A stretch of DNA of 64,000 nt, from assembly GCA_003574885.1 (NCBI GenBank), contig PJFC01000001.1:930001-994000 (forward strand), read 5' to 3'. Source of the DNA: Geobacter sp. (GTDB lineage: Bacteria; Desulfobacterota; Desulfuromonadia; Geobacterales; Geobacteraceae). Below the pieces are notes generated by a model that had not been told where the DNA came from, ran no database searches, and was given only the letters and a program-made list of their open reading frames with translations. Of this stretch, positions 16,964 to 41,453 are shown piece after piece; position 1 is the first letter of the stretch; each line of letters starts with the position of its first letter. The translations under genes and the position numbers were made by a program.

Positions 16964-17049
16964 GATAGACGATAATACTCAACCATCCGCGAGGATGGGG
17001 CGGAAAGCCTAAAGGGTCTCCATGAGACAGCCGGGTTGCCGAAATATCA
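16964..17049 (+). promoter_or_regulatory. GEMM-I riboswitch (cyclic dinucleotide; candidate cGAMP-type)
   Basis: The GEMM core is visible: a first hairpin with CCATCC-GCGA-GGATGG (16983-16998), the GGAAAGCC junction (17002-17009), a second hairpin GGGTCTC-CAT-GAGAC (17014-17028), and the closing GCCGGGTTGCCG. P1 can form between GATA (16971-16974) and TATC (17045-17048). An A (16977) aligns with the position that is G20 in the c-di-GMP-binding Vc2 aptamer; A at this site marks the GEMM-Ib group that prefers 3',3'-cGAMP and is common in Geobacter. Position 46 also differs (G instead of C). Ligand identity is inference. The 3' strand overlaps a terminator, so ligand binding would favour read-through. 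Confidence 0.85.
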
Positions 17050-25285: not shown

Positions 25286-25380
25286 CTTCCGCCTCCTCTT
25301 CCGAATGCATATCCATCGTTGCCGAGACAATTCTGGAAAAGAGAAAGGGTTATGGCAATGCCATAACCCTTTGATATTAC

Positions 25381-25456
25381 TGGAGCCACCTGCCAGAATC
25401 GAACTGGCGACCTATTGATTACGAATCAATTGCTCTACCAACTGAGCTAAGATGGC
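25381..25456 (-). tRNA. tRNA-Thr(CGT)
   Basis: A full cloverleaf with the CCA end encoded. The anticodon loop reads TTCGTAA, giving anticodon CGT. The acceptor stem pairs GCCATCT with AGGTGGC and contains one T-G wobble pair. The D arm (GCTC/GAGC), anticodon stem (ATTGA/TCAAT) and T arm (GCCAG/CTGGC) are perfect. The 5' half (25431-25456) appears to have been supplied by the adjacent integrated element. Confidence 0.95.
25431..25456 (-). repeat. left attachment repeat (attL) inside tRNA-Thr
   Basis: This 26-base segment is repeated at 40034-40059 with two mismatches; TGCTCTACCA and CTGAGCTAAG are identical. Crossover most likely happened in the ten-base TGCTCTACCA part. It forms the 5' half of the intact tRNA. 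Confidence 0.8.
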
Positions 25457-25639
25457 CTGTAATAAACTTTACAACATTGCATTATTTAAAAACTATTTGC
25501 ATTTTTTGGCTACAAATTGCGCTGTAGATATGCATAAAACGGCTGTAGCGTCGTGGTGTTTTATGACACGAATTGCGTTGATGTGTCAAGGCTATTTCAG
25601 AGGATCAGGGCGTTGAAACTGGCAGGGGTAACTGGTGCT

Positions 25640-26134
25640 CCGATTTCAACGGACTAGGACGCTGAAGATGATACGGAATTAAATGTCAGTGACCTTCTCC
25701 GGCCAGGGCGCTGAAGGTGATACGGAATCAAATGTCAGTGACCTTCTCCGGCCAGGACGCTGAAGTGAATCGATCATGAACGCCGGCTTCAGTTCTCCGG
25801 CCAGGACGCTGAAGGTGATCGACATGAAACATCACCTTCACTTCTCCGGCCAGGGCGCAGAAGGTGATCGACATGAAACATCACCTTCAGTTCTCCGGCC
25901 AGGGCGCAGAAGGTGATCGACATGAAACATCACCTTCAGTTCTCCGGCCAGGACGCAGAAGGTGATCGACATGAAACATCACCTTCAGTTCTCCGGCCAG
26001 GACGCTGAAGGTGATCGACATGAAATGTTAGTGACCTTCTCCGGCCAGGACGCTGAAGGTGATCGACATGAAACATCACCTTCAGTTCTCCGGCCAGGAC
26101 CTGAAGGTGATCGATCATGAACGCTGGCTTAAGA
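25640..26134. repeat. tandem 49-bp hairpin repeat array
   Basis: Nine clear units start at 25695, 25744, 25793, 25842, 25891, 25940, 25989, 26037 and 26086, with period 49 (one of 48). One or two decayed units lie before them. Each unit has TTCTCCGGCCAGG, then an inverted repeat such as GAAGGTGAT with ATCACCTTC around an 11-13-base loop. Where one arm changes (25695, 25744 and 25989 units) part of the stem is still kept. Units at 25842 and 25891 are identical. No credible protein is encoded. Confidence 0.92.
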
Positions 26135-26341
26135 GTTTTTGTGCCGACGCAAAAAAACCGACAATCAAAAATTATCGGTCTAGTGTCTCAGTTAATAAGT
26201 AATGCTACTGCTATTTATTCCACCTCGACTGAGCGGCCTTTTTAGCAATCTCTTTACGCTGCTCAGACGTTTCATTTCTGCTCTTGTTGGTAGTTGCCCG
26301 GCATGTTACAGGCCGGGCAACCGTCTTGCCTATCGTGATTG
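26135..26341. other. non-coding stretch between the repeat array and the tape measure gene
   Basis: No gene is supported. It contains a perfect ten-base inverted repeat, GTTGCCCGGC (26293-26302) with GCCGGGCAAC (26312-26321), which could end the leftward tail transcript although no T run follows on that strand. Confidence 0.45.
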
Positions 26342-29026
26342 CTATTGCTGTCTTACAAGGGCCTCGCGTCTTAAAGCGGTTTTCAGCTCGTTAAGCACAT
26401 CAATCTTACCGGTGACAGGATAAGAACCGCCCCCAATATTGATAGTAATTGATCCCATATCAACAGGAGCGGTCACCGGTCCCCCGCCGGCAAAGGCCAT
26501 CTTTGCCACCGGCAGTTGCGGGGTCGACCTGACAAAACCGCCAAGCCGTGCCATAACATCTTTACCAGCGCCACCAAAGGGGTTATTAAACACGGACATC
26601 AACTCATCACCCCAGAAATGGGCGGCTTCATTGCGAATGAACCATTCACCAGGTCGAGCCATGACCGGGATGGAGTCAAAGGCGGAATCCCCGCCGGGAA
26701 GCTTGCCGCCGGTCGCCATACCGGTATAGCTCGGCGACGATCCGCCCCCCACCGTCTCAAGGATGATGGTTTTCTTCTCGGTTTTGGTCAGGTCATTCAT
26801 GGCGGCCTTGGTGCTGGCAAGCGCCGCCTCGTCCAGCTTAATCTCGATTGCTTTCGGATCAAACTTGGTGGCGGCGATCTCCTTCACCTTCTCCAGGGCA
26901 TCCACCGCCTCGGACTTCTGCTTCTTCATAATCATGACGCCGTTGTCCTGCACCTTCTGCAGGGCTTCGGTAGCCGCGGCAACACCGTCCACCCCTTCGG
27001 CCTGCGTATCTGACAGCCGGGACGCCAGCGCCTCGGCCTGCTTGTTGTACTTCAGCGCATTCTCGTAGTCCTGCGCGGAGTACGCCAGAAACGATTGTGA
27101 CAGCGCTTCATTGAACCGCTTCTGATTGTCGGCGTACTTCTGGTCTTCCGACATCCCCCTTTGCCGCAGGTCGCTGATCTTCTCCTGGATCGAGGCGCGG
27201 AAGTCGGCAATCCCTTTTTCGATCTCCTTCACCTTGTCGGCGTACTTCTTCTGCGCTGCCAAGTTGGCGTCCGTGTACGCCTTGAAACTTGCCTCCTGCT
27301 CTTTCAGCGCCTTCTTGTAATCTTCCGATCCCTGGCCGTAAATGGCGGAAATCCTGTCCGCCACCAGCTTGCGGGATTCGTACTGCTCTTTGGCAGCCGC
27401 CAGGGTGAGAATGGTAATGCTCTGCTCTGCCTGCTGTTCGGTGATGACACGATCCACAGCCTGTTGACGAATAGCAAGGATCTCCTGATTCAGCCCTTCT
27501 TTCCGAAGGTCCACCGCCCGCTGCACGGCGCGAGCCTGAATGATTTCACCGTCGCGGGCGTGCTGCTGCTCCAGGGCTTTGAGCGCATCATTCTTCACCC
27601 TCTCCCAGGCCAGCTCCTCCTTGTTGTCCTTAGCCATAGCCTTCTTCTGGTTATAGTAATTTTCTGCAGCCTTCATCCTGTCCCGGTATGCCTTCTCCAT
27701 TTCAGCCGATAGCGCCGCATCGGCATTGCCCGACTGTTTAGCGTATTCCTCGTTGATCTTTGCCAGCTCCTCGCCGGTTTTCTTTGCCTCATTACGGCGG
27801 CGCTGGCTGTTGCGGGCGTCTTCCGCTGCAGCTTTTGCGTTTGTGTTGTTGAGGTTGTCGTTTAAAATGCCATACTTCCTTTCCAGGTCTGCAAAAGCCC
27901 CCCCAGCGGCATCATTTATGACATCAAGGGATTTTTTGACGCGCTGTTTTCCTGCATCGGAAAAAAGATCACCGTTGAAAAAAGCCTTAGCATAAACGGC
28001 GGCCTTATCGAATGCTGCAGGAATACCGATTCCCATGATTTCCACATAGGAAATAAGGTTCTTGAACGCAAAGACCAGCTTTTCTGCACCCCCCATAACC
28101 ATGGCGATTGCCGGTTGAAGCGCACTGCCAAATGCGGACTTGGTTTTGAAGACTTCTGAATTGAAAGTATTCAAGGCCCCACGACCTTGTTTTGCGGCCT
28201 CTTCAGCAGAAACACCATAAGTAGCGTGAAGCTCTTTAGCCAGTGCGGGGAGCGCATCCGTTGCCATTACCTGTCCCTTTTGCATCTGGTTCATCAGTTC
28301 TGCCGTGGTGAGCCCTAAGCCTGTTGCCATTTTTTCGAGTAGGCCCGGGAAAGATTCAGAAGCGGTCTTCAGATCCTCCATATTTACTTTGCCCTTGGAG
28401 AGCATCTGTTGAAACTGATACAGCACTGCTGTGGATTTTTCGGCCGGAAGATGGATTGCGGAGGCGGCTTCAGATACAGCGCTAAACATTCTTCTGGCGG
28501 GTTCCCCCTCCATACTGGTGTTTTTTGACGCAACGGCAAAGGAGCTGTAAGCTTCGGCGGTCTGTTGCAGATCAAGCCCCAGGCGCTTTGCCTCTTCGCT
28601 GATGAACTTCCACTCCTCGCCCGCTCCCTGTGAAGAACCGGTTACCACTTTCAATTTGCTGTCAATGGCATCCATCTGCAGGGAAGCGTTAAAGGTTTCC
28701 TTTATGAATGACTTAATGGCATTTACACTAAATGCCGCTACTGCAAATTGAGCCATAGAACCAAGAGCGAGATTTAATCCTCCTACCGACTCACTACTTT
28801 TATTTGTAGCAGCACTGAAGTCTTTACCTACGGTAGTTATTCCTTCGCTGGTCTTCTTGACCGCCTTTTGCAGCTCCGCCATTTCCTTCTGGATGGCAGA
28901 CGGTCCGGCGGAAAAGGCGGTCCCCGCTTTAGCCTGCATATCCTTCAGCTCGTCCTGCAGCGTGATTAAGGTCTTACTGAAAGCGTCTTTTGCCGCAATT
29001 TCTATCGTTACTTTATTGTCTGCCAT
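26342..29026 (-). CDS. phage tail tape measure protein
   Basis: An 894-residue tape measure protein. The N-terminal part has the coiled coil and tape-measure domain (roughly 1-330) with TVGKDFSAATNKS, the LQQTAEAYSSFAVASKN region and QFQQMLSKGKVNMEDL near 220. A long Ala/Lys/Glu-rich coiled-coil stretch runs from about 380 to 760. A Gly-rich C-terminus follows with TGGKLPGGDSAFDSIPVMAR, a common phage tape-measure tail segment. Its length sets tail length in siphophages. ATG 29026 follows TGGAGA. Minor tail genes that normally follow are absent; the hairpin array and the element end come next. Confidence 0.93.
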   Translation of the reverse strand: MADNKVTIEIAAKDAFSKTLITLQDELKDMQAKAGTAFSAGPSAIQKEMAELQKAVKKTSEGITTVGKDFSAATNKSSESVGGLNLALGSMAQFAVAAFSVNAIKSFIKETFNASLQMDAIDSKLKVVTGSSQGAGEEWKFISEEAKRLGLDLQQTAEAYSSFAVASKNTSMEGEPARRMFSAVSEAASAIHLPAEKSTAVLYQFQQMLSKGKVNMEDLKTASESFPGLLEKMATGLGLTTAELMNQMQKGQVMATDALPALAKELHATYGVSAEEAAKQGRGALNTFNSEVFKTKSAFGSALQPAIAMVMGGAEKLVFAFKNLISYVEIMGIGIPAAFDKAAVYAKAFFNGDLFSDAGKQRVKKSLDVINDAAGGAFADLERKYGILNDNLNNTNAKAAAEDARNSQRRRNEAKKTGEELAKINEEYAKQSGNADAALSAEMEKAYRDRMKAAENYYNQKKAMAKDNKEELAWERVKNDALKALEQQHARDGEIIQARAVQRAVDLRKEGLNQEILAIRQQAVDRVITEQQAEQSITILTLAAAKEQYESRKLVADRISAIYGQGSEDYKKALKEQEASFKAYTDANLAAQKKYADKVKEIEKGIADFRASIQEKISDLRQRGMSEDQKYADNQKRFNEALSQSFLAYSAQDYENALKYNKQAEALASRLSDTQAEGVDGVAAATEALQKVQDNGVMIMKKQKSEAVDALEKVKEIAATKFDPKAIEIKLDEAALASTKAAMNDLTKTEKKTIILETVGGGSSPSYTGMATGGKLPGGDSAFDSIPVMARPGEWFIRNEAAHFWGDELMSVFNNPFGGAGKDVMARLGGFVRSTPQLPVAKMAFAGGGPVTAPVDMGSITINIGGGSYPVTGKIDVLNELKTALRREALVRQQ

Positions 29027-29041: not shown

Positions 29042-29185
29042 TTATTGGTCGTCGGCACCCTCATGAATCTTGACATGAGCATCAATCATGTCTAAGAAGA
29101 AACCGTATCCCCACTGCCATAACTCGGACCCATGGCCGTATTCAGTGAGAAAAGCAGCCTGTTCGAGAAGCTCTGCAGCAGGGTT
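29042..29185 (-). CDS. -1 frame extension of the tail assembly chaperone
   Basis: In the frame one base behind the chaperone gene, an open stretch of 47 codons reads NPAAELLEQAAFLTEYG and ends IHEGADDQ, 15 bases before the tape measure start. It has no start codon of its own. It is the kind of segment that lambda-like phages join to the chaperone by programmed -1 frameshifting. The joining point that best preserves both frames is at the AAAA run 29184-29187; a canonical slippery heptamer TTTTTTC lies at 29236-29242. A one-base deletion in the A run would look the same. Confidence 0.6.
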   Translation of the reverse strand, partial: NPAAELLEQAAFLTEYGHGSELWQWGYGFFLDMIDAHVKIHEGADDQ

Positions 29186-29493
29186 TTCACAAATCCGGCC
29201 AGAGCCTCTGTGAGTTTTAACGCTCTGGCCATCTCGAAAAAAGCGGGGTTGGTCTCCTTAAATGCCTCGTAGACCGCCTGGAGATCATCATAGAAGAGAT
29301 CACCAGACAACAAAGCTTCAACATTGCCCTCAAAGGCCAGGGGAATGAGCGCTTTCACCCTTTCGGCGGCCTCGACAGCCGGAATGGTAGTAAGTGACTC
29401 TTCGCCACGGAATAGCCGGAATATAACAGAGACCGGTATTTCTGATATGGTGACTGCCTGACCTGCAACTTCGATTGATTTTGTACGTCTCAT
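29092..29493 (-). CDS. phage tail assembly chaperone
   Basis: A 133-residue acidic, helix-rich protein just upstream of the tape measure gene, the standard place for a siphophage tail assembly chaperone (lambda gpG equivalent). It starts MRRTKSIEVAGQAVTISEI and contains FRGEESLTTIPAVEAAERVK. ATG 29493 follows AAAGGAG; the longer frame to 29559 lacks a site. The last about 30 residues overlap the -1 frame extension. Family assignment is mainly positional and by composition. Confidence 0.7.
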   Translation of the reverse strand: MRRTKSIEVAGQAVTISEIPVSVIFRLFRGEESLTTIPAVEAAERVKALIPLAFEGNVEALLSGDLFYDDLQAVYEAFKETNPAFFEMARALKLTEALAGFVKTLLQSFSNRLLFSLNTAMGPSYGSGDTVSS

Positions 29494-29536
29494 GTTTAGC
29501 TCCTTTGTGAAATTAGTTGGCCTCCTGTCTGAGACC

Positions 29537-29644
29537 TCACAGACAGTGAAGCAGTACACGGGTTTCGACTGTGGCGTGAATTATCGCCCCATGAAGCTCC
29601 CAATCTGCTTTTTTGAATCCCGGTAAGGGTTCGCGGCGTTTCAT
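29537..29644 (-). CDS. possible tiny ORF (35 aa)
   Basis: ATG 29644 opens a 35-codon frame starting MKRREPLPGFKKADWELHG. It sits in the gap between two phage genes and has plausible composition, but there is no ribosome site and no recognised family. A seven-base inverted repeat, CTGTCTG/CAGACAG (29525-29546), overlaps its end. Confidence 0.25.
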   Translation of the reverse strand: MKRREPLPGFKKADWELHGAIIHATVETRVLLHCL

Positions 29645-30196: not shown

Positions 30197-30658
30197 TCAT
30201 AAACCTTTCTCCTTTCTGTTTTTTGTGTGAGGATCGCTTGGTTCGGTTACTCCAGCCGTTTCTGTGGTGGCCTGCCCCGCGCTAACCATATTCCCGCATT
30301 CACATAACTCCATGACCGACCCGGGGAACAAGTCGATCACGTCATTGAGGCCGGGGATTACTCGCGCCAGAATATCTGGTTTACGCTCCTCAAGAATCGT
30401 TATGGCCTCAGCGAAGGAACAGGCGCGGCCTTTCTCTGCCATGCGCTGCAACCAAAAATCAGTGCCGCAGAAAAACCACCTATGGGGCATGTCGTAGTCG
30501 TTAACGAGAAACTCAGCAACAACTTCACGCCCACTGTACCCGCTGAAAAGCTCCCGCACGGACCGCCCCCAAAGATCAGAGAGAGGGACAAAATCCCAAT
30601 GACCGTCAAGACGCTCCTTGATGCTGAACTGGATCATGGGATTATTCGTATGGATCAT
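30197..30658 (-). CDS. hypothetical phage protein
   Basis: A 153-residue protein with no recognised domain. It reads SIKERLDGHWDFVPLSDLWG, then FFCGTDFWLQRMAEKGRACS, and near the end a LCECGNM motif that could bind metal, followed by a Thr-rich tail. I chose ATG 30658 because it overlaps the end of the helicase gene by 17 bases, suggesting translational coupling; ATG 30637 is an alternative. The frame upstream of that is the shadow of the helicase gene. Confidence 0.6.
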   Translation of the reverse strand: MIHTNNPMIQFSIKERLDGHWDFVPLSDLWGRSVRELFSGYSGREVVAEFLVNDYDMPHRWFFCGTDFWLQRMAEKGRACSFAEAITILEERKPDILARVIPGLNDVIDLFPGSVMELCECGNMVSAGQATTETAGVTEPSDPHTKNRKEKGL

Positions 30659-32012
30659 AGTTTTCTGGATCACGCATATACCCCTTCCGCAGTCGGGACT
30701 TGCCGCGCTCGGCATTTTTGGCAGCCAATTGGTCGTATGGAGAGAGGCCGCGAATCTTGAGATGTGGTGCGTGCATATCGACAAGGAAAGAAAGGTTTTC
30801 CTCGCCATTGCGATTCTTGAGCAGTTTAAGGACAAGATTTTTCTGTTCGTCTTTCTGCAGGCCAATAAGATAGTCCGCGCTGGCCTCGATAGCGCCTGAT
30901 CCCTTGCCGCTGAATTTTTCAACCTGTCCGGCGGCGGCGCTGGTCCGGTTGATCTGAGTAAGCACAATCACCGGGAGATTGAGCCGCTTGGCGAGGTGTT
31001 TGCTGTTTTCGGCAACGTAGCTTATCCGCTCGTATTCGCTCTTTGCGTTATCGGCCCCCATGAGCCCCATGTAGTCAATTCCGATTGCACCAAGCTGGCC
31101 GTAACGCTGGCGGGCCAGGCGCGTGTAATGTTCAATGCGCTCGATGGTGAGCCCTGCCTGGTCGCAAACGATCAGCTTGTCAGCTTTGAGGTTGCGTAAC
31201 TCTTCAAGGGTTTTTTCCTTATAGCCAGCATGGTGATGAAAGCCGGATTCTACCCGGTAAGTCAGCGTTTCAAGGCCGATCTGAACGGTACGCTCAAACA
31301 CCCGTGTTCCGGGCATTTCCAGGGAGAAAAACAGATGATGCAGATCAGTACGATTGCAGGCATTGAGAAGCATGTTCTGCAGGACGGCGCTCTTATACAG
31401 CCCGGAATAAGCCTGGATAAACATAGTTTCACCAGGTGCACAACCCCGGATAATGCCGTCAAGGTCGGGAAAACCGGTTATAAACCGAGTTTTATCAAGG
31501 GTATTGACGTGCTTTTCGTAGAGATCAGCGAGGTGCTCAAGGGTGAGCAGGGCGTCGTCTTTCTGTCGGTGGGCGGTGCCTACCTTCTCTAGGGCGGCAA
31601 AAGCGATGGCAAGTAGCGCGTCGGGATCTTCAGTACTGGTTGCAGCTGTTGCGATCTGCCGGGCGGCGTCTATGACTTTACGGGCAATTGCCTTACTCTT
31701 GACAAGCCGGCAATGGTAATTGACATTGGAGCTGGTTACGACGCTGTCAAACAGGTCTCCCAGGTACGCAGGGCCGCCGACCTTTTCCAGTTCGCCGTTA
31801 GTCCTGAGCCGTGTAATTGTGGTTGTGAAGTCGATAGGCTCGCCCTGTAGCGCCTGAGCGAGCATGGTGCTGAAAATAATACGATGCCCCTGGTGATAGA
31901 AATCATCACGCTCCAGAGCTGCAGCAACGATATCAATTGCGCTGGGGTCAACCAGGACACTCCCGAGTACGGCCTGCTCTGCTTCGAGGTTATGCGGTGT
32001 TTCTTTCACCAT
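30642..32012 (-). CDS. replicative DNA helicase (DnaB family)
   Basis: A 456-residue hexameric helicase. The N-terminal DnaB domain starts TPHNLEAEQAVLGSVLVDPS, the usual opening of the family. The RecA-like domain begins near 185. The nucleotide-binding loop reads AYSGLYKSAV: Lys-Ser is kept, but the Gly normally just before Lys is Tyr. Later motifs IGIDYMGLM (Walker B type) and VLTQINRT (motif H3 type) are clear, and GSGAIEASADYLI matches the end of the motor. ATG 32012 follows GGGAGATA. It pairs with the initiator encoded upstream. Confidence 0.93.
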   Translation of the reverse strand: MVKETPHNLEAEQAVLGSVLVDPSAIDIVAAALERDDFYHQGHRIIFSTMLAQALQGEPIDFTTTITRLRTNGELEKVGGPAYLGDLFDSVVTSSNVNYHCRLVKSKAIARKVIDAARQIATAATSTEDPDALLAIAFAALEKVGTAHRQKDDALLTLEHLADLYEKHVNTLDKTRFITGFPDLDGIIRGCAPGETMFIQAYSGLYKSAVLQNMLLNACNRTDLHHLFFSLEMPGTRVFERTVQIGLETLTYRVESGFHHHAGYKEKTLEELRNLKADKLIVCDQAGLTIERIEHYTRLARQRYGQLGAIGIDYMGLMGADNAKSEYERISYVAENSKHLAKRLNLPVIVLTQINRTSAAAGQVEKFSGKGSGAIEASADYLIGLQKDEQKNLVLKLLKNRNGEENLSFLVDMHAPHLKIRGLSPYDQLAAKNAERGKSRLRKGYMRDPENYDPYE

Positions 32013-33424: not shown

Positions 33425-33458
33425 GCCTGCTCTGCTTCGAAGTTATGCGGCGTTTCTT
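33425..33458 (-). repeat. duplicated dnaB 5' segment (scar)
   Basis: This 34-base sequence matches the dnaB gene start region at 31972-32005 with 32 identities, spanning codons that encode KETPHNLEAEQAG-like residues in dnaB. Here it forms the last codons and stop of the initiator gene and the following bases. It looks like the left-over start of an older dnaB copy. Confidence 0.8.
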
Positions 33459-34258
33459 GCTACCTCCCAGGGAGTGAATGAATGGAGCGGTACATCAAAG
33501 TCAGGGATTAAGCCTTTGTCAAAAAATCTATTCTCATCGTCTGGGCTGAATTTACCGGCCAGCAGGTTTATAGAACTGGTCAACCCTCCGAGAGTCGGAG
33601 CGCCTTGGGGGAATCTCTGAGCGGAAGGCATGTCAAGGTAGGCGCATGCGCGGGTTACCAGGTCTTCCAGGGAAAGACTCCCTGACAGTCGCTTGATGAT
33701 CGCGGCGTCCTTTGCGGTAATGACGTATTTTTCACCAGTGATGGTTGCAAAGGCAAAGCACCACCATTTTAAGAACCAGGTGTGATTCTGCTTTTTGATT
33801 TTATCGGCGGGAAGCGTCCCCGTGGTTTTCGGGGCGCATTCTTTTATGGTTAAATCTTTGGGTTCATATAAGAGGAGACATTTTGTCTCTACCCCTGGCG
33901 TCATTTTGTCTCTAGGGGTAGAGACATTTTGTCTACTTTTTGACTCTACCCCTGGCGTCATTTTGACTCTACCCCTGGCGTCATTTTGACTACTTTCTAG
34001 TAGAACTCGGTAAAGGCTTGAGGTCTTTGAACCGTTTGCTCTCTTTTCACCTTTTACTGAGATGTAGCCATGGTCAACGAGCCACCTGATTGACCGGTCA
34101 ATAGTCCGCAGGCTGTCTCCAGTCTTCATGGAGAGGTTGGCGCGGCTGGGCCAACAGTAACCATCATCATTGGCAGCATCGGCCAAGGCCAGTAGCAACA
34201 TTTTTACAGACTTGGAGAGCGGTGTTTTCCAGACGACAGACATCAAGGCTATGCTCAT
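33443..34258 (-). CDS. phage replication initiator with helix-turn-helix domain (O-like)
   Basis: A 271-residue protein. A winged HTH at about 15-75 (LLLALADAANDDGYCWPSRA, then the recognition helix with TIDRSIRWLVDHGYISV) resembles lambda O-type and other phage replication initiators. The middle (about 95-128) is encoded by iteron-like repeats, giving two copies of MTPGVE. The C-terminal part (about 150-265) has the AYLDMPSAQRF helix bundle. It overlaps the upstream gene by four bases (ATGA). Its last codons derive from a duplicated dnaB start. It should load the DnaB helicase at the internal origin; this is inference. Confidence 0.82.
   Translation of the reverse strand: MSIALMSVVWKTPLSKSVKMLLLALADAANDDGYCWPSRANLSMKTGDSLRTIDRSIRWLVDHGYISVKGEKRANGSKTSSLYRVLLESSQNDARGRVKMTPGVESKSRQNVSTPRDKMTPGVETKCLLLYEPKDLTIKECAPKTTGTLPADKIKKQNHTWFLKWWCFAFATITGEKYVITAKDAAIIKRLSGSLSLEDLVTRACAYLDMPSAQRFPQGAPTLGGLTSSINLLAGKFSPDDENRFFDKGLIPDFDVPLHSFTPWEVARNAA
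33879..33988. repeat. iterons inside the initiator gene (candidate origin)
   Basis: The core CATTTTG occurs five times on the plus strand, at 33879, 33902, 33925, 33959 and 33982 (spacing 23, 23, 34, 23). Between them lies CTCTACCCCTGGCGT in near-identical copies, one of them inverted (TAGGGGTAGAGA). An origin made of iterons inside the initiator gene is the lambda O arrangement. Confidence 0.75.
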
Positions 34259-35139: not shown

Positions 35140-35223
35140 ATGGAAACGGGAGAAGCACGATTTACCACGCTTATGTCGGGTCGTCGGTTTTCACCGTCAC
35201 TTCACCTCGGGACGAGTGCGTAA
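35140..35223 (+). CDS. possible tiny ORF on the plus strand (27 aa)
   Basis: ATG 35140 is preceded by AGAAGGAGAACGAAAA, one of the best ribosome sites in the element, and opens 27 codons starting METGEARFTTLMSGRR. It runs opposite to the neighbouring genes and overlaps the end of the AlpA-like gene by 27 bases. It could be a leader peptide or chance. Confidence 0.25.
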   Translation: METGEARFTTLMSGRRFSPSLHLGTSA

Positions 35224-35385
35224 GTACTCAATAATCGAACTTTCCAACCATCCCACCAATCCGGGGCTTATCTGCCGGCGAGCCGGAAATAGCCCAGCCT
35301 TTTCGAGCCTCCATATCTGGGTTGAAGATATGCCAACCATTTCGGTCAACTCTTTGCGGCGAATTACTCTTTCACGAGCGTCCAT
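35197..35385 (-). CDS. AlpA family transcriptional regulator (excisionase-like)
   Basis: A 62-residue MerR-like HTH protein. RVIRRKELTEMVGISSTQIW and LEKAGLFPARRQI are the usual AlpA/phage-regulatory pattern, and LVGWLESSIIEYL closes the domain. AlpA proteins activate integrase or early genes of prophages and phage-inducible islands. ATG 35385 follows GGGAGG at seven bases; the frame to 35403 has no site. Here it is transcribed away from the recombinase gene. Confidence 0.85.
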   Translation of the reverse strand: MDARERVIRRKELTEMVGISSTQIWRLEKAGLFPARRQISPGLVGWLESSIIEYLRTRPEVK

Positions 35386-35520
35386 GGATAAACCTCCCTG
35401 CATTTGAACTGCTGTTGCATGGGATGAATAAGACCACAGATAAAAATGTGAGTAAAAGGCGGTTGCGTTTTTTTTATTTGAAATCGCTGTAAGGGGGGGG
35501 CTGCTTAAAAAGGGGTGGGG

Positions 35521-37337: not shown

Positions 37338-37399
37338 ATTTGACCTGGTTGCACTGATATGGTAAACATGAGCGGCGATAAATGGGGACATACATAAAA

Positions 37400-38911
37400 A
37401 TGATTGCTGCCATATACATTAGAAAAAGTCGTGAAGATAAAGCCAGGCCGGGATTCCGTCTCACAGCGCAACGTGAGCAGCTCCCGGCCTTTGCTCGTTC
37501 TCAGGGCTGGCAGATAGAAGTCTACGACGATGGCCATGCTTCTGCAGCCAGGGGCAAGACTGAGGATCTGAAAGAACGCGGCAGACTTGAAACCGATATT
37601 CGCGCTGGCAAGATAAACATTATTCTGGTGATCGAGCTGTCGCGTCTGTCTCGTGATGATTCGATGCAGGACTATGTGGCCTGGTTACATCTCTGTGGCC
37701 AGCATGGCGTAAAGCTCGCCACCACGTCACGCATTCTTGACCCTGCCATGCCAAGTGATTGGATGCTGCTCTTGATGGAGGGTGGTTTCTCCAGTGTGGA
37801 AATGAAGGTTCTTCAGGGGCGAATGAAAGAGGGTAGGGATCAGGCATTTAAAGGCGGTAAATTCCTTGGCGGAAAATGCCCTCCGCCTTATGTGCATGAT
37901 AAGGCCAAAGGTCAACCGGTCATAGACCCCCAGGCCCTGACCGATATTCGCAAGGTATGGGAGTTGGCTGAAACAATGAGCGCTAAGGCCGTGGCACAAC
38001 AAACCGGCTGGCCTCACATTGCCGTGCGGCGTGCAATATCGGATGAAAGGCTGTTGTTTTATCAGGCGCTCCGCCTGGACCCTCAGACCGGCGAACACAT
38101 ACCGTGTGAATGGCCACCATGCATGGAAGCGGACCAGGCGGCGCGGATCATGGCGAACAGGAAGAACAGACTGAGCGGTTACAACCGCGCCATTGCTGCA
38201 GGGCTGCTGTCTAACCTTGGCTTATTTACCTGCGGCTACTGCGGCCGATCTGTCCGTGCCTGGAAAAATGGACGAGTCCGCAAAGATGGAACCCGTCTTG
38301 ACTATTATGGCTGTAAAGCCAACGAGACGCAGCGGCTCTGCGCCAAGTCTCGCATGGTCCCCCAGCACATCATTGATGAACGGGTAACAACCAACCTCCT
38401 CGGCACTATGGACAATATCGCGGAACTGCAGGCCGCCTGGCTGGCCACCCAGGGCGATGATAATACATCTGGCCAGTTGACTGAATTGGACCGGAAAGAA
38501 GCGGATCAGCAGGCGCGGAAGAAACGCCTTGTTGCTGCCGTCGCAGAGGGTATCATTGATTTTGCCGACGCCAAAACCACCCGCTCAGACATCGAGGCGG
38601 CCATTCTCGCAATCCAAAAACAGCGAACTGGACTACAGGCCACGGTGACAACAACGCCTGACTGGGATTCATTGTCATTTACCGGTGAAGAATTCGCCGT
38701 TCTGACCAGAGACGAACAGCGTGAGGTTATCGGTCTGGCCATCGCCAACATTCGCCTCTATAGCACGTACCTGATCATTGAATATCGCTTCCCGCGAACC
38801 ATGACCGGCGATCGAACCGCCCGGGTTCACCTGCCATTCAGGAAGCCAGCAACCACCGCCGGATCTCGCCAGTATTACAAACTGAAACCGACTGAACCAA
38901 AGAAACCTTAA
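37400..38911 (+). CDS. serine recombinase (large serine integrase type)
   Basis: A 503-residue recombinase. The N-terminal resolvase domain (about 1-150) has the catalytic Ser in AIYIRKSRED near residue 9 and the conserved ELSRLSRD near 78. A recombinase domain follows (KGGKFLGGKCPPPYV and on). A zinc ribbon CGYCGRSVRAWKN near 280 is paired with further Cys residues. A coiled-coil and C-terminal part follows. It is the only integrase candidate in the element and lies near its right end. I prefer ATG 37400 (MIAAIYIRK is the usual start) over 37382; the ribosome site GGGGA fits 37400. Confidence 0.93.
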   Translation: MIAAIYIRKSREDKARPGFRLTAQREQLPAFARSQGWQIEVYDDGHASAARGKTEDLKERGRLETDIRAGKINIILVIELSRLSRDDSMQDYVAWLHLCGQHGVKLATTSRILDPAMPSDWMLLLMEGGFSSVEMKVLQGRMKEGRDQAFKGGKFLGGKCPPPYVHDKAKGQPVIDPQALTDIRKVWELAETMSAKAVAQQTGWPHIAVRRAISDERLLFYQALRLDPQTGEHIPCEWPPCMEADQAARIMANRKNRLSGYNRAIAAGLLSNLGLFTCGYCGRSVRAWKNGRVRKDGTRLDYYGCKANETQRLCAKSRMVPQHIIDERVTTNLLGTMDNIAELQAAWLATQGDDNTSGQLTELDRKEADQQARKKRLVAAVAEGIIDFADAKTTRSDIEAAILAIQKQRTGLQATVTTTPDWDSLSFTGEEFAVLTRDEQREVIGLAIANIRLYSTYLIIEYRFPRTMTGDRTARVHLPFRKPATTAGSRQYYKLKPTEPKKP

Positions 38912-39118
38912 AAACAGTGCGTTTATAGTCACGGGCTCCAAATTTGACCGCTGAGGCCTTTCAATTGGAAATGCCTGTAACTACCTTTGCCGGTGATGGC
39001 CTTTAGTGTCATGGCGACACAAAACGCAACCATTTTGCCATTACAACCCCACCCATTACCGCACAATCATTATGACCCGGGGGGGAGTAGTCATGACGAG
39101 GAATGCAATTTAAATTAA

Positions 39119-39147
39119 TTGTAAAGTGTACGCTTAAAGGGTATAGT
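39119..39147 (+). promoter_or_regulatory. promoter of the toxin-antitoxin pair
   Basis: TTGTAA (39119-39124), a 17-base spacer and TATAGT (39142-39147) form a good sigma-70-type promoter ending six bases before the toxin ATG; the transcript may be leaderless. Confidence 0.6.
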
Positions 39148-39153
39148 GTGAAC

Positions 39154-39465
39154 ATGATATTTGTGGAAGCAAAACCATTCACTCGTAGGAGACCGGACTA
39201 CCTCACTGAAGACGAATTCCGGGAACTTCAGAATTATCTTTTGGAGACGCCGGCAGCGGGGGACTTGGTAAAGGACACCGGTGGTATCAGAAAAATACGG
39301 TGGAAGTCAAAAGGAGGCGGCAAACGTGGCGGCCTTCGGATCCTCTACTATTGGCATGTTCCAGACAGCCACATCTATCTGTTGTTTATTTATCGAAAGA
39401 ACGAATTTGAAGACCTCACGAAAGACGAATACGCACAACTCAGAAACATAGTAGAAAGGTGGTAA
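39154..39465 (+). CDS. higB: HigB/RelE-like toxin
   Basis: A 103-residue RelE-fold toxin. It begins MIFVEAKPFTRRRPDYLTED and has the family run KGGGKRGGLRILYYWHVPD and LLFIYRKNEFEDLT. Toxins of this group cleave mRNA on the ribosome. The toxin gene comes first, as in higBA modules. Start ATG 39154 matches homologues; no ribosome site is seen, in keeping with a leaderless message. The antitoxin follows after five bases. Confidence 0.88.
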   Translation: MIFVEAKPFTRRRPDYLTEDEFRELQNYLLETPAAGDLVKDTGGIRKIRWKSKGGGKRGGLRILYYWHVPDSHIYLLFIYRKNEFEDLTKDEYAQLRNIVERW

Positions 39466-39470
39466 CAACC

Positions 39471-39800
39471 ATGGCAAAGACAGCAAAGGGACGGCTCTTT
39501 GATGAACTGAAGGAAGCTGTTGAAGAAATTGACCAGTGGCGTACTGGTAAGATCACCCTCAAAAACTATTCCGTGGAGGTCAAGAGGATCCCAGAAGTTA
39601 CGCCAGAGATTATCAGGGACACACGGGAAAAATTGAACCTTTCCCGGCCGGTCTTCGCTCACGAGTTGCATGTTTCCCCGCGAACCCTGGAAAAATGGGA
39701 GCAAGGGTTAACCAAGCCAAACGAGCAGGCTGCAGCCCTGATTATGCTTGTCAGGAAATTCCCGGATACATTACAGCGGTTGAAGCAGTTGGCGGCATAA
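39471..39800 (+). CDS. higA: HigA-like antitoxin with HTH domain
   Basis: A 109-residue antitoxin. The C-terminal Xre-type HTH runs from about 50 to 100 (TREKLNLSRPVFAHELHVSP, then TLEKWEQG). The N-terminal part with LFDELKEAVEEIDQW neutralises the toxin in homologues. AAAGGTGGTAAC precedes ATG 39471. The pair can stabilise the element in the chromosome. It also probably represses its own promoter. Confidence 0.88.
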   Translation: MAKTAKGRLFDELKEAVEEIDQWRTGKITLKNYSVEVKRIPEVTPEIIRDTREKLNLSRPVFAHELHVSPRTLEKWEQGLTKPNEQAAALIMLVRKFPDTLQRLKQLAA

Positions 39801-40012: not shown

Positions 40013-40033
40013 ATAACTATAAATGCGCTCTAC

Positions 40034-40059
40034 TGCTCTACCATCTGAGCTAAGGTGGC
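40034..40059 (-). repeat. right attachment repeat (attR): displaced 5' half of the original tRNA-Thr
   Basis: Matches 25431-25456 with two differences. On the minus strand it starts GCCACCTTAGCTCAGATGG. If joined to the 3' half at 25381-25430 it gives a tRNA-Thr whose acceptor stem GCCACCT/AGGTGGC is fully paired, without the T-G wobble of the present tRNA. So this is the host-derived part. Confidence 0.82.
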
Positions 40060-40145
40060 ATGACATTCGGTGCCGAAAAACCGGCCGTTATTTTCTAGCG
40101 TATTTTTGCCGGTGAGTCAACTTATAAAGCCATTGTTACCGGTTT

Positions 40146-41453
40146 TCACCCCTTGGCCGCCTGCTTTCCCATGGCGTCGTCCATCAATTTGTAGGCGCAG
40201 AACTCGCCACACATGGTGCAGGCGCCGTGGTCGGCGACACCCGATTCGGCCCGGAGCCGCCGTGCCTTCTCCGGATCCATGGCCATGTCGAACTGTCCCT
40301 CCCAGTCGAGCTTTTTCCGGCACTTTGCCATCCGGATGTCCTTCTCCATCGCCCCCTTGACCCCCTTGGCGATGTCGGCGGCGTGGGCGGCGATGCGGGA
40401 GGCGATAACCCCCTCGCGAACGTCTTCTACGCTCGGGAGCTTCAGGTGCTCACTCGGCGTTACATAGCAGAGGAAGTCGGCGCCGGCCGCGGCGGCTATG
40501 GCTCCGCCGATGGCGCAGGTTATATGGTCGTAGCCGGGAGCGATGTCGGTGACCAGCGGTCCCAGGACGTAAAAGGGAGCTCCGTGGCAGAGCCGCTTCT
40601 GAAGCAGGATGTTGGCCTCGATCTGGTTGAGGGGGACGTGTCCCGGCCCTTCGATCATCACCTGCACCCCTGCCTCCTGGGCACGCTGGGTAAGCTCGCC
40701 GAGGATGATGAGCTCGTGGATCTGGGCCCGGTCGGTGGCATCGGCCAGGCAGCCGGGACGGAAACCGTCACCCAGCGACAGGGTCATGTCGTACTCCCGG
40801 ACGATCTCCAGCAGCCGGTCGAAGTGCTCGAACAAAGGGTTTTCCATGTTGTTGTAAGCCATCCATTCCACGGTGAACGCGCCACCGCGGGAGACCACGT
40901 CCATGATCCGTCCTTCGTTCTTCATCCGCTCCACGGTGCTCCGGGTAACGCCACAGTGGACGGTGATGAAGTCTACCCCGTCCTCGGCGTGCTTGATGAC
41001 CCCGGCGAAGATGTCGTCCACGCTCATGTCGACGATTGCCTTGTTCTTGGTCCGGACGGCATCGAGGGCCGCCTGGTAGAGGGGGACGGTGCCGATGCAG
41101 GCGTTGGTCTCGGCGATAATGGCGCGGCGGATTTCGTCAACCGGGCCACCGGTTGAGAGGTCCATGATGGCGTCGGCGCCGTGGTGTACCGCGGTGCGCG
41201 CCTTTTCCAGCTCCTTGCTGATGTCCAGGTCGTCGGCTGAGGTGCCGATGTTGGCGTTCACCTTGGTGCGGAGCCCCTTTCCAACGGCAAGGGGACGGCC
41301 ATTGCCATGTCTCACGTTCTGGCAGATGATGATGTTGCCGGCGGTGATGCCGTCGCGAATGAACTCGGCGGATACCCCCTCTGCCAGCGCCGCCTCCTTC
41401 ATCTTGTCGGTTATGATGCCCTTCCGGGCGTAATCAAGCTGCGTTTTCAGCAT
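40146..41453 (-). CDS. thiC: phosphomethylpyrimidine synthase ThiC
   Basis: A 435-residue radical SAM enzyme that makes HMP-P from AIR in thiamine synthesis. The C-terminal [11 protein letters not shown] holds the CxxCx4C ligands for the iron-sulfur cluster; [17 protein letters not shown] and [14 protein letters not shown] are family hallmarks. It matches the shorter ThiC form without the N-terminal extension seen in E. coli. ATG 41453 follows AAGGAG. It lies downstream of the fused thiED gene on the same TPP-controlled transcript; the 74-base gap contains simple CCTAGT-type repeats. Confidence 0.97.

Follow-up and report, generated by a model that had tools for sequence, protein, structure and literature searches.

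Bacterial minisatellites (VNTR) are built from head-to-tail units of tens of base pairs, and variation of copy number at the strain level is their hallmark. The tandem array described here, located in a window of 64,000 nucleotides (64 kb) from a Geobacter sp. genome, resembles them in its homogenised centre, degenerate edges, near-constant unit length and single locus, while it differs from them in possessing inverted-repeat arms and 3' halves that appear to have been exchanged as blocks. Palindromic units, regular spacing and a non-coding array are also features of REP/BIME elements (PMC2817692, PMC3733652). However, REPs are dispersed at high copy, whereas this array occupies one locus in its genome with no dispersed copies, and a REP/BIME assignment was rejected for this reason. 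The RNA arrays of type III toxin-antitoxin systems (ToxI; PMC8860590) are likewise tandem repeats, and the array here is followed by a T-run; unlike them, it comes without a convincing promoter by scan, a recognised downstream toxin or an Rfam match. As for the CsrB/RsmZ sponges, a CAGGACG linker resembling the CsrB motif (PMC5027483) is present in 5 of the 11 units and CAGGA is over-represented. In contrast to the sponges, GGA is not enriched here, AGGG is found in 4 of the 11 units and no CsrA was detected in the host.

The array occupies a non-coding stretch, with attL on one side and, on the other, the terminator that follows the tape-measure gene. It comprises 11 units of 48–49 bp (nine clear and two degenerate, the last one truncated) at 25606–26141:

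25606–25654, unit U0, degenerate
25655, start of U1
25704, start of U2
25753, start of U3
25802, start of U4
25851, start of U5
25900, start of U6
25949, start of U7
25998, start of U8 (48 nt)
26046, start of U9
26095–26141, U10, degenerate and truncated

The only strong call of Tandem Repeats Finder is at the array (25694–26121, period 49, 8.8 copies, score 568); the same array is also called at period 147, and the repeats called elsewhere in the window are weaker and shorter. Between 25699 and 26090 there are nine exact CCGGCCAGG anchors, with spacings of 49, 49, 49, 49, 49, 49, 48 and 49, and identity at a lag of 49 reaches 0.71 in the array versus at most 0.315 in any of 1,247 other windows of equal length, which overlap one another, across the 64 kb. 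The array is not a chance pattern. A 49-position sequence profile made from the units detected 11 units, which span 25606 to 26134 of the window, adding one degenerate unit at each array end (starts 25606 and 26095), and the array therefore reaches past the nine clear units on both sides. An initial annotation, made from the letters of this DNA, had described a tandem array of period 49 with nine clear units beside the left end of an integrated element, and the repeat finder, the anchor spacings and the lag-49 identity bear this out, with the array placed inside a 14.6-kb element near attL. Its wording of an exact period holds for most spacings and fails for the 48-nt U8 and for U10, which carries a 1-nt deletion.

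Head-to-tail copies of a unit in the range of about 10–100 bp are what defines a minisatellite, and this is what is found. We give a probability of roughly one half to the reading that the array is a VNTR-like minisatellite that expanded locally on a mobile element and was homogenised in part by recombination, without demonstrated function.

The surroundings of the array identify the mobile element. The array sits inside a 14.6-kb prophage-like element integrated in tRNA-Thr, whose ends are 14,603 bp apart, and the following features were placed in and beside it:

25381–25456, minus strand, tRNA-Thr (CGT), with its 5' part and upstream region from the element
25426–25459, no strand assigned, attL-like copy of 34 nt, 85% identical to attR
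25539–25554, plus strand, terminator-like hairpin ahead of the array
25564–25588, no strand assigned, dyad TGACAC-N13-GTGTCA, overlapping the next site
25589 (start of the first hexamer), minus strand, promoter-like TTGACA-18-CATAAA, a 10/12 match to the consensus only
26155–26181, minus strand, intrinsic terminator-like hairpin with T-run from a site scan, closing the minus-strand gene block before the array
26342–29026, minus strand, tape measure protein of 894 aa by family match, the first gene with a family assignment on the right side of the array
29092–29559, minus strand, relative of a protein encoded beside the tape-measure gene in another genome of the family (L013), possibly a tail assembly chaperone
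30642–32012, minus strand, DnaB-like helicase by family match
33443–34258, minus strand, O-like replication initiation protein, whose gene contains 23-bp iteron-like repeats at 33875–33991
35197–35403, minus strand, excisionase-like protein by family match
37382–38911, plus strand, large serine integrase by family match
39103–39800, plus strand, toxin-antitoxin-like pair of a RelE-like protein (just under the Pfam cut-off) and an HTH protein, at the far end of the element
40029–40062, no strand assigned, attR-like copy with the displaced tRNA-Thr 5' fragment

In a sister genome an intact tRNA-Thr is directly followed by the counterpart of the window gene at 40146, which we take to be thiC. This represents an empty site; in the window, the 5' part of the tRNA and the DNA upstream of it thus come from the element. 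Another sister genome (G002, locus L033) has about 2.5 kb of extra DNA at the same tRNA-Thr junction, including a 748-aa ORF with the look of a membrane protein by eye, indicating that the tRNA-Thr site varies within the genus. Neither capsid nor terminase gave a family match among the element proteins scanned, and the element is therefore a prophage remnant or possibly a satellite. Direct repeats of 23 bp and 57 bp were seen within the O-like gene at 33855–34014, and its iteron-like repeats are likely to be the replication origin. On the host side, a c-di-GMP-I riboswitch was noted at 16967–17043.

The array adjoins an att site, and the element around it derives from a phage and encodes replication proteins, which raises the possibility of a phage maintenance site (for packaging, partition or a second replication origin) left from a larger prophage. 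However, the element proteins scanned contain no terminase, capsid, ParA or ParB family match, so the packaging or partition site suggested in the initial annotation found no support. The likely origin would be the iteron-like block in the O-like gene, and no array of this kind occurs in five stretches with related integrases. We regard a maintenance site as very improbable.

Within the units, conservation is uneven. Read from the linker, a typical unit (U9) has the order CAGGACGC-TGAAGGTGAT-CGACATGAAAC-ATCACCTTCA-GTTCTCCGGC, and 5 of the 11 units contain a perfect 9-bp inverted repeat, GAAGGTGAT-N11-ATCACCTTC, at the following places (overall span 25811–26083, no strand assigned):

25811, perfect 9-bp inverted repeat
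25860, perfect 9-bp inverted repeat
25909, perfect 9-bp inverted repeat
25958, perfect 9-bp inverted repeat
26055, perfect 9-bp inverted repeat

Other units have shorter stems, namely a 6-bp GAAGGT/ACCTTC pairing in U2 and U8, an imperfect version of it in U1, and 8 pairs in U0. The left half is mostly common to the units, while the 3' halves are of three kinds, with an ending GTGACCTTCTCC in U1 and U2 and GCYGGCTTMAG in U3 and U10; in U8 a left half of the common type is joined to a right half resembling that of U1 and U2. In an identity matrix U5 and U6 are identical, U4–U7 and U9 are at least 94% identical, and U0 and U10 diverge most. The variable segments thus recur (U4–U7, U9) and there are no constant repeats with unique spacers, so a CRISPR was rejected; on this anatomy we agree with the initial annotation, and no cas genes were found among the element proteins scanned. 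Conservation is concentrated in a 21-bp core, TCTCCGGCCAGGRCGCWGAAG, which covers the linker and the start of the 5' arm and occurs exactly eight times as TCTCCGGCCAGG[AG]CGC[TA]GAAG between 25696 and 26058:

25696, plus strand, core
25745, plus strand, core
25794, plus strand, core
25843, plus strand, core
25892, plus strand, core
25941, plus strand, core
25990, plus strand, core
26038, plus strand, core

Across the 11 units the mean pairwise difference is 0.13 and 0.19 for the linker parts, 0.18 for the 5' arm, 0.37 for the loop and 0.50 for the 3' arm, the most variable segment of the unit, although part of this last value arises because the ACCTTC arm is shifted by four bases in U1, U2 and U8. 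Linker columns of U1–U9 were less diverse than random choices of columns (fraction 0.0006), yet 2 of 50 contiguous blocks were equally low. Such uneven conservation could signal selection on a core site. As it could mean selection, it counts against the minisatellite reading, and the conserved core favours, a little, the idea of a protein-binding array in the initial annotation.

We reasoned how such binding might look. A dimeric protein of the host or the element would bind the core, centred on GGCC within a 34-bp quasi-palindrome at the unit boundaries, and 8–10 sites at a 49-bp spacing would form a nucleoprotein patch, which might regulate the adjacent minus-strand promoter-like site (which would feed the rebuilt tRNA-Thr) or titrate the protein. 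The exact core at eight places in the 11 units, in their least variable part, is consistent with such a patch, and so is one boundary sequence that is symmetric at 24 of 34 positions. Just outside the array, the TTGACA-18-CATAAA site and the dyad (one in the window versus 0.04 expected) point away from it, towards tRNA-Thr, and a TTGACT-17-TAGAAA match, now at the opposite (attR) end, may be the native tRNA-Thr promoter. However, a stricter promoter scan does not list the TTGACA-18-CATAAA site, and a 49-bp spacing does not correspond to an integral number of helical turns. The core is absent elsewhere in the element and so does not behave as an element-wide binding site: outside the array there are eight matches with 1–3 mismatches, where chance predicts 6.07 for the window, and none of them falls within the element. 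Moreover, no candidate binding protein was identified, and no relatives carrying the sites turned up in the collections searched. We therefore hold a DNA-binding array, the main rival of the minisatellite reading, to be possible but rather unlikely. Quite improbable, on our estimate, is a specific version in which the element would swap the promoter and 5' half of the host tRNA-Thr and the array would act as an upstream multi-site control region, bound at the GGCC-centred core and setting the tRNA level or blocking late-gene read-through. If the core were shown to bind protein, this would be an unusual mobile element with its own long control array beside a rebuilt tRNA.

The initial annotation had put an inverted repeat in every unit and taken the partial stems of differing units as a sign that structure is kept. 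Part of a stem is indeed retained in several differing units (6 bp in U2 and U8, 8 pairs in U0), while the perfect 9-bp hairpin is confined to five of the 11 units. Within the units of this single array, the summed pairing energy of arms from the same unit was −131.3 kcal/mol versus a mean of −130.8 when arms were permuted, and 47% of 20,000 permutations were at least as good; in a linker-centred frame, where the 3' arm pairs with the 5' arm of the next unit, 71% of permutations were equally good. The covariation score was 0.188 versus a shuffled mean of 0.204 (369 of 500 shuffles at least as high), and 74.5% of cells were paired versus 74.0% after shuffling, in a register that fits the common unit type; in U1, U2 and U8 the ACCTTC arm is displaced onward by about four bases, so that their 6-bp stem was scored as unpaired in this count, whereas the permutation tests are unaffected by register. 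Slid registers paired 24.5 to 56.9% of cells, and this drop is expected since the structure was taken from these same sequences. Thus, no compensatory stem changes were detected in the two folding frames by permutation or in the covariation counts, tests whose power is limited because many units have the same arms. Conserved RNA hairpins were rejected on this absence of signal. By the same tests the claim of a kept hairpin structure was not confirmed: within the limited power, pairing within units equals pairing between units and covariation is not above that of shuffles. If the stem mattered, the 3' arm should track the 5' arm, yet variation is concentrated in the 3' arm. The sole hint of compensation is U0, which retains its 8-bp stem with a partly different sequence and counts against a neutral reading. 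The hairpin-bearing repeat looks functional by eye, yet it shows no covariation.

Folding scores nevertheless appear to speak for a non-coding RNA of repeated stem-loops, which would run rightward, end at the T5 run after U10 and either sequester an RNA-binding protein in the manner of a sponge or work like the antitoxin RNA of a type III system. When single units were folded, at most 8 of 300 shuffles folded as well as the native sequence for 6 of the 11 units (2, 8, 8, 7, 5 and 0 for U4 to U9), while the counts were 78, 105, 44, 73 and 245 for U0, U1, U2, U3 and U10. On each strand the fold of the whole array surpassed all of 100 shuffles (z of about −7.6 for plus and −7.5 for minus). However, the whole-array fold is strong, and equally so on both strands, because complementary arms alternate. 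A rightward transcript also meets difficulties at its start: between attL and the array the stricter scan lists no plus-strand promoter-like site, the best loose match being 8/12, and its one plus-strand promoter site farther left (25371–25399) overlaps the tRNA gene outside the element, while the terminator-like hairpin at 25539–25554 precedes the array. No Rfam family reached its gathering score in the array; at a loose threshold the sub-threshold matches were freshwater-1 RNA (18.3 bits versus a gathering score of 72) and mir-2008.

For a CsrA sponge, the CAGGACG linkers are joined by an over-representation of CAGGA, with 6 occurrences, whereas 134 windows of the element average 1.0 and reach 5 at most. 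By contrast, GGA itself (11 versus a mean of 10.2) and ANGGA (3 versus 3.3) are not enriched against the same windows, and GGA is predicted to lie in a short stem in several boundary folds. CsrA (PF02599) gave no match in the host genome at E 0.001, in a search for which the control was positive in 3 of 14 genomes. Despite the CAGGACG linkers and over-represented CAGGA, a CsrA sponge was judged unlikely, with GGA not enriched and no CsrA found. The nearest plus-strand ORF to the right encodes 73 aa (26202–26423), runs antisense to part of the minus-strand block and matched nothing in Pfam or PADLOC. With this ORF on the right and tRNA-Thr on the left, there is no recognised toxin directly downstream, and a type III toxin-antitoxin system was rejected. 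The argument for stem-loop RNA in the initial annotation also loses ground to a stem without covariation between units and to related-integrase elements without the array. Overall, we consider a stem-loop RNA improbable.

Relatives of the array were sought at several distances. A homologous array was not detected by blastn in the genus (3 other genomes) or the family (47 genomes), and the one outside match (G014, 75% over 65 bases), in a stretch that is coding by eye, was taken as chance. A profile search of 141 genomes of the order, with stricter filters that lose weak matches, detected no homologous array in the other 140; seven of these gave one weak match each (E up to 0.01), none of them tandem. 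With blastn set for distant similarity, 50,697 phage and 72,556 plasmid records gave no match. An exact two-centre pattern scan of 84,980 genomes yielded 6 matches, and all were read in context and none fits the unit profile. In a pattern scan of IMG/VR that gave at least 120 stretches, no profile match was present in the 80 searched, nor in 8 other loci, and 23 hairpin-pattern matches, not profile-scored, had a single place each.

The element itself was followed through its integrase, its tape measure and one unknown protein, and no close relative of it as a whole emerged. Five other loci with integrases 53–67% identical contained no array of this kind and shared no further gene with the element in the stretches compared, and over all loci compared the common genes were integrase, tape measure and, in one locus, the gene beside tape measure. 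G049 has a sixth relative of the integrase, matched in part (47%) at the end of a contig and outside this comparison. Other tandem repeats in the compared stretches had units of 10 bp (L035, L036), 282 bp (L183), and 31 bp, 105 bp and shorter (L185). The initial annotation had held that homologous elements without the array would speak against its proposal, and the related-integrase elements examined indeed lack it. The failure to find relatives could also reflect close relatives missing from the collections, some of which omit records near the genome of the window. No title in the literature described the array, which is weak evidence as coverage was partial. The array sequence was thus not found in the collections searched, while a tandem repeat with inverted arms is, as an object, of a known kind.

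We prefer the minisatellite reading because the array is a single locus with no relatives found, its centre is homogenised with degenerate edges, and its arms show no coevolution. The array would have grown by tandem duplication inside a small prophage-like element, without a dedicated function. Slipped-strand replication or unequal recombination between copies would hold the unit length near 49 and homogenise the core, while the hairpin-prone arms may promote slippage as well as the exchange of 3' halves as blocks; U8 resembles a mosaic of two unit types. Any effect on transcription or DNA topology would then be incidental. Counting against the minisatellite reading, the unit length stays at 48–49 despite a rearranged 3' half. 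In addition, arrays of period 25–120 with at least 4 copies numbered 0 in 400 kb of the same genome (one block, about 11.5%), so expansion of this kind is not routine in the host. A survey of 103 viral loci gave 11 Tandem Repeats Finder rows of period 25–120 and at least 4 copies in 9 loci, which is not an unbiased rate, as these loci were picked by repeat or hairpin patterns.

Arrays of similar appearance were observed elsewhere. IMGVR_UViG_3300033149_003004 (82.7 kb) carries 49-bp tandem arrays in at least two places, their arms AGACTTTT/AAAAGTCT enclosing CCTGGCCRGAAG:

L115, 1–147, tandem array
L115, 7341–7726, tandem array
L176, 5232–5365, tandem array
L231, about 1036–1094, tandem array

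The array at the end of L176 and that at the start of L115 could be one array split between records. The other L115 array (7.9 copies) comes after an ORF and is overlapped only by open frames running through the repeat; in its 8 units the 5' arm varies and the 3' arm is nearly invariant, again without compensation. These arrays and that of L053 resemble the window array in period (49–52), a CCGGCCAGG-like centre and inverted arms, but the common centre and period were preselected because the search patterns required two such centres at such spacing, and L115 and L053 do not match the profile of the window array. L053, from a Propionibacteriaceae MAG, has 52-bp tandem repeats at 1602–1727 and 2752–2860 (2.4 and 2.1 copies), one of which is centred on CTCCGGCCAGG.
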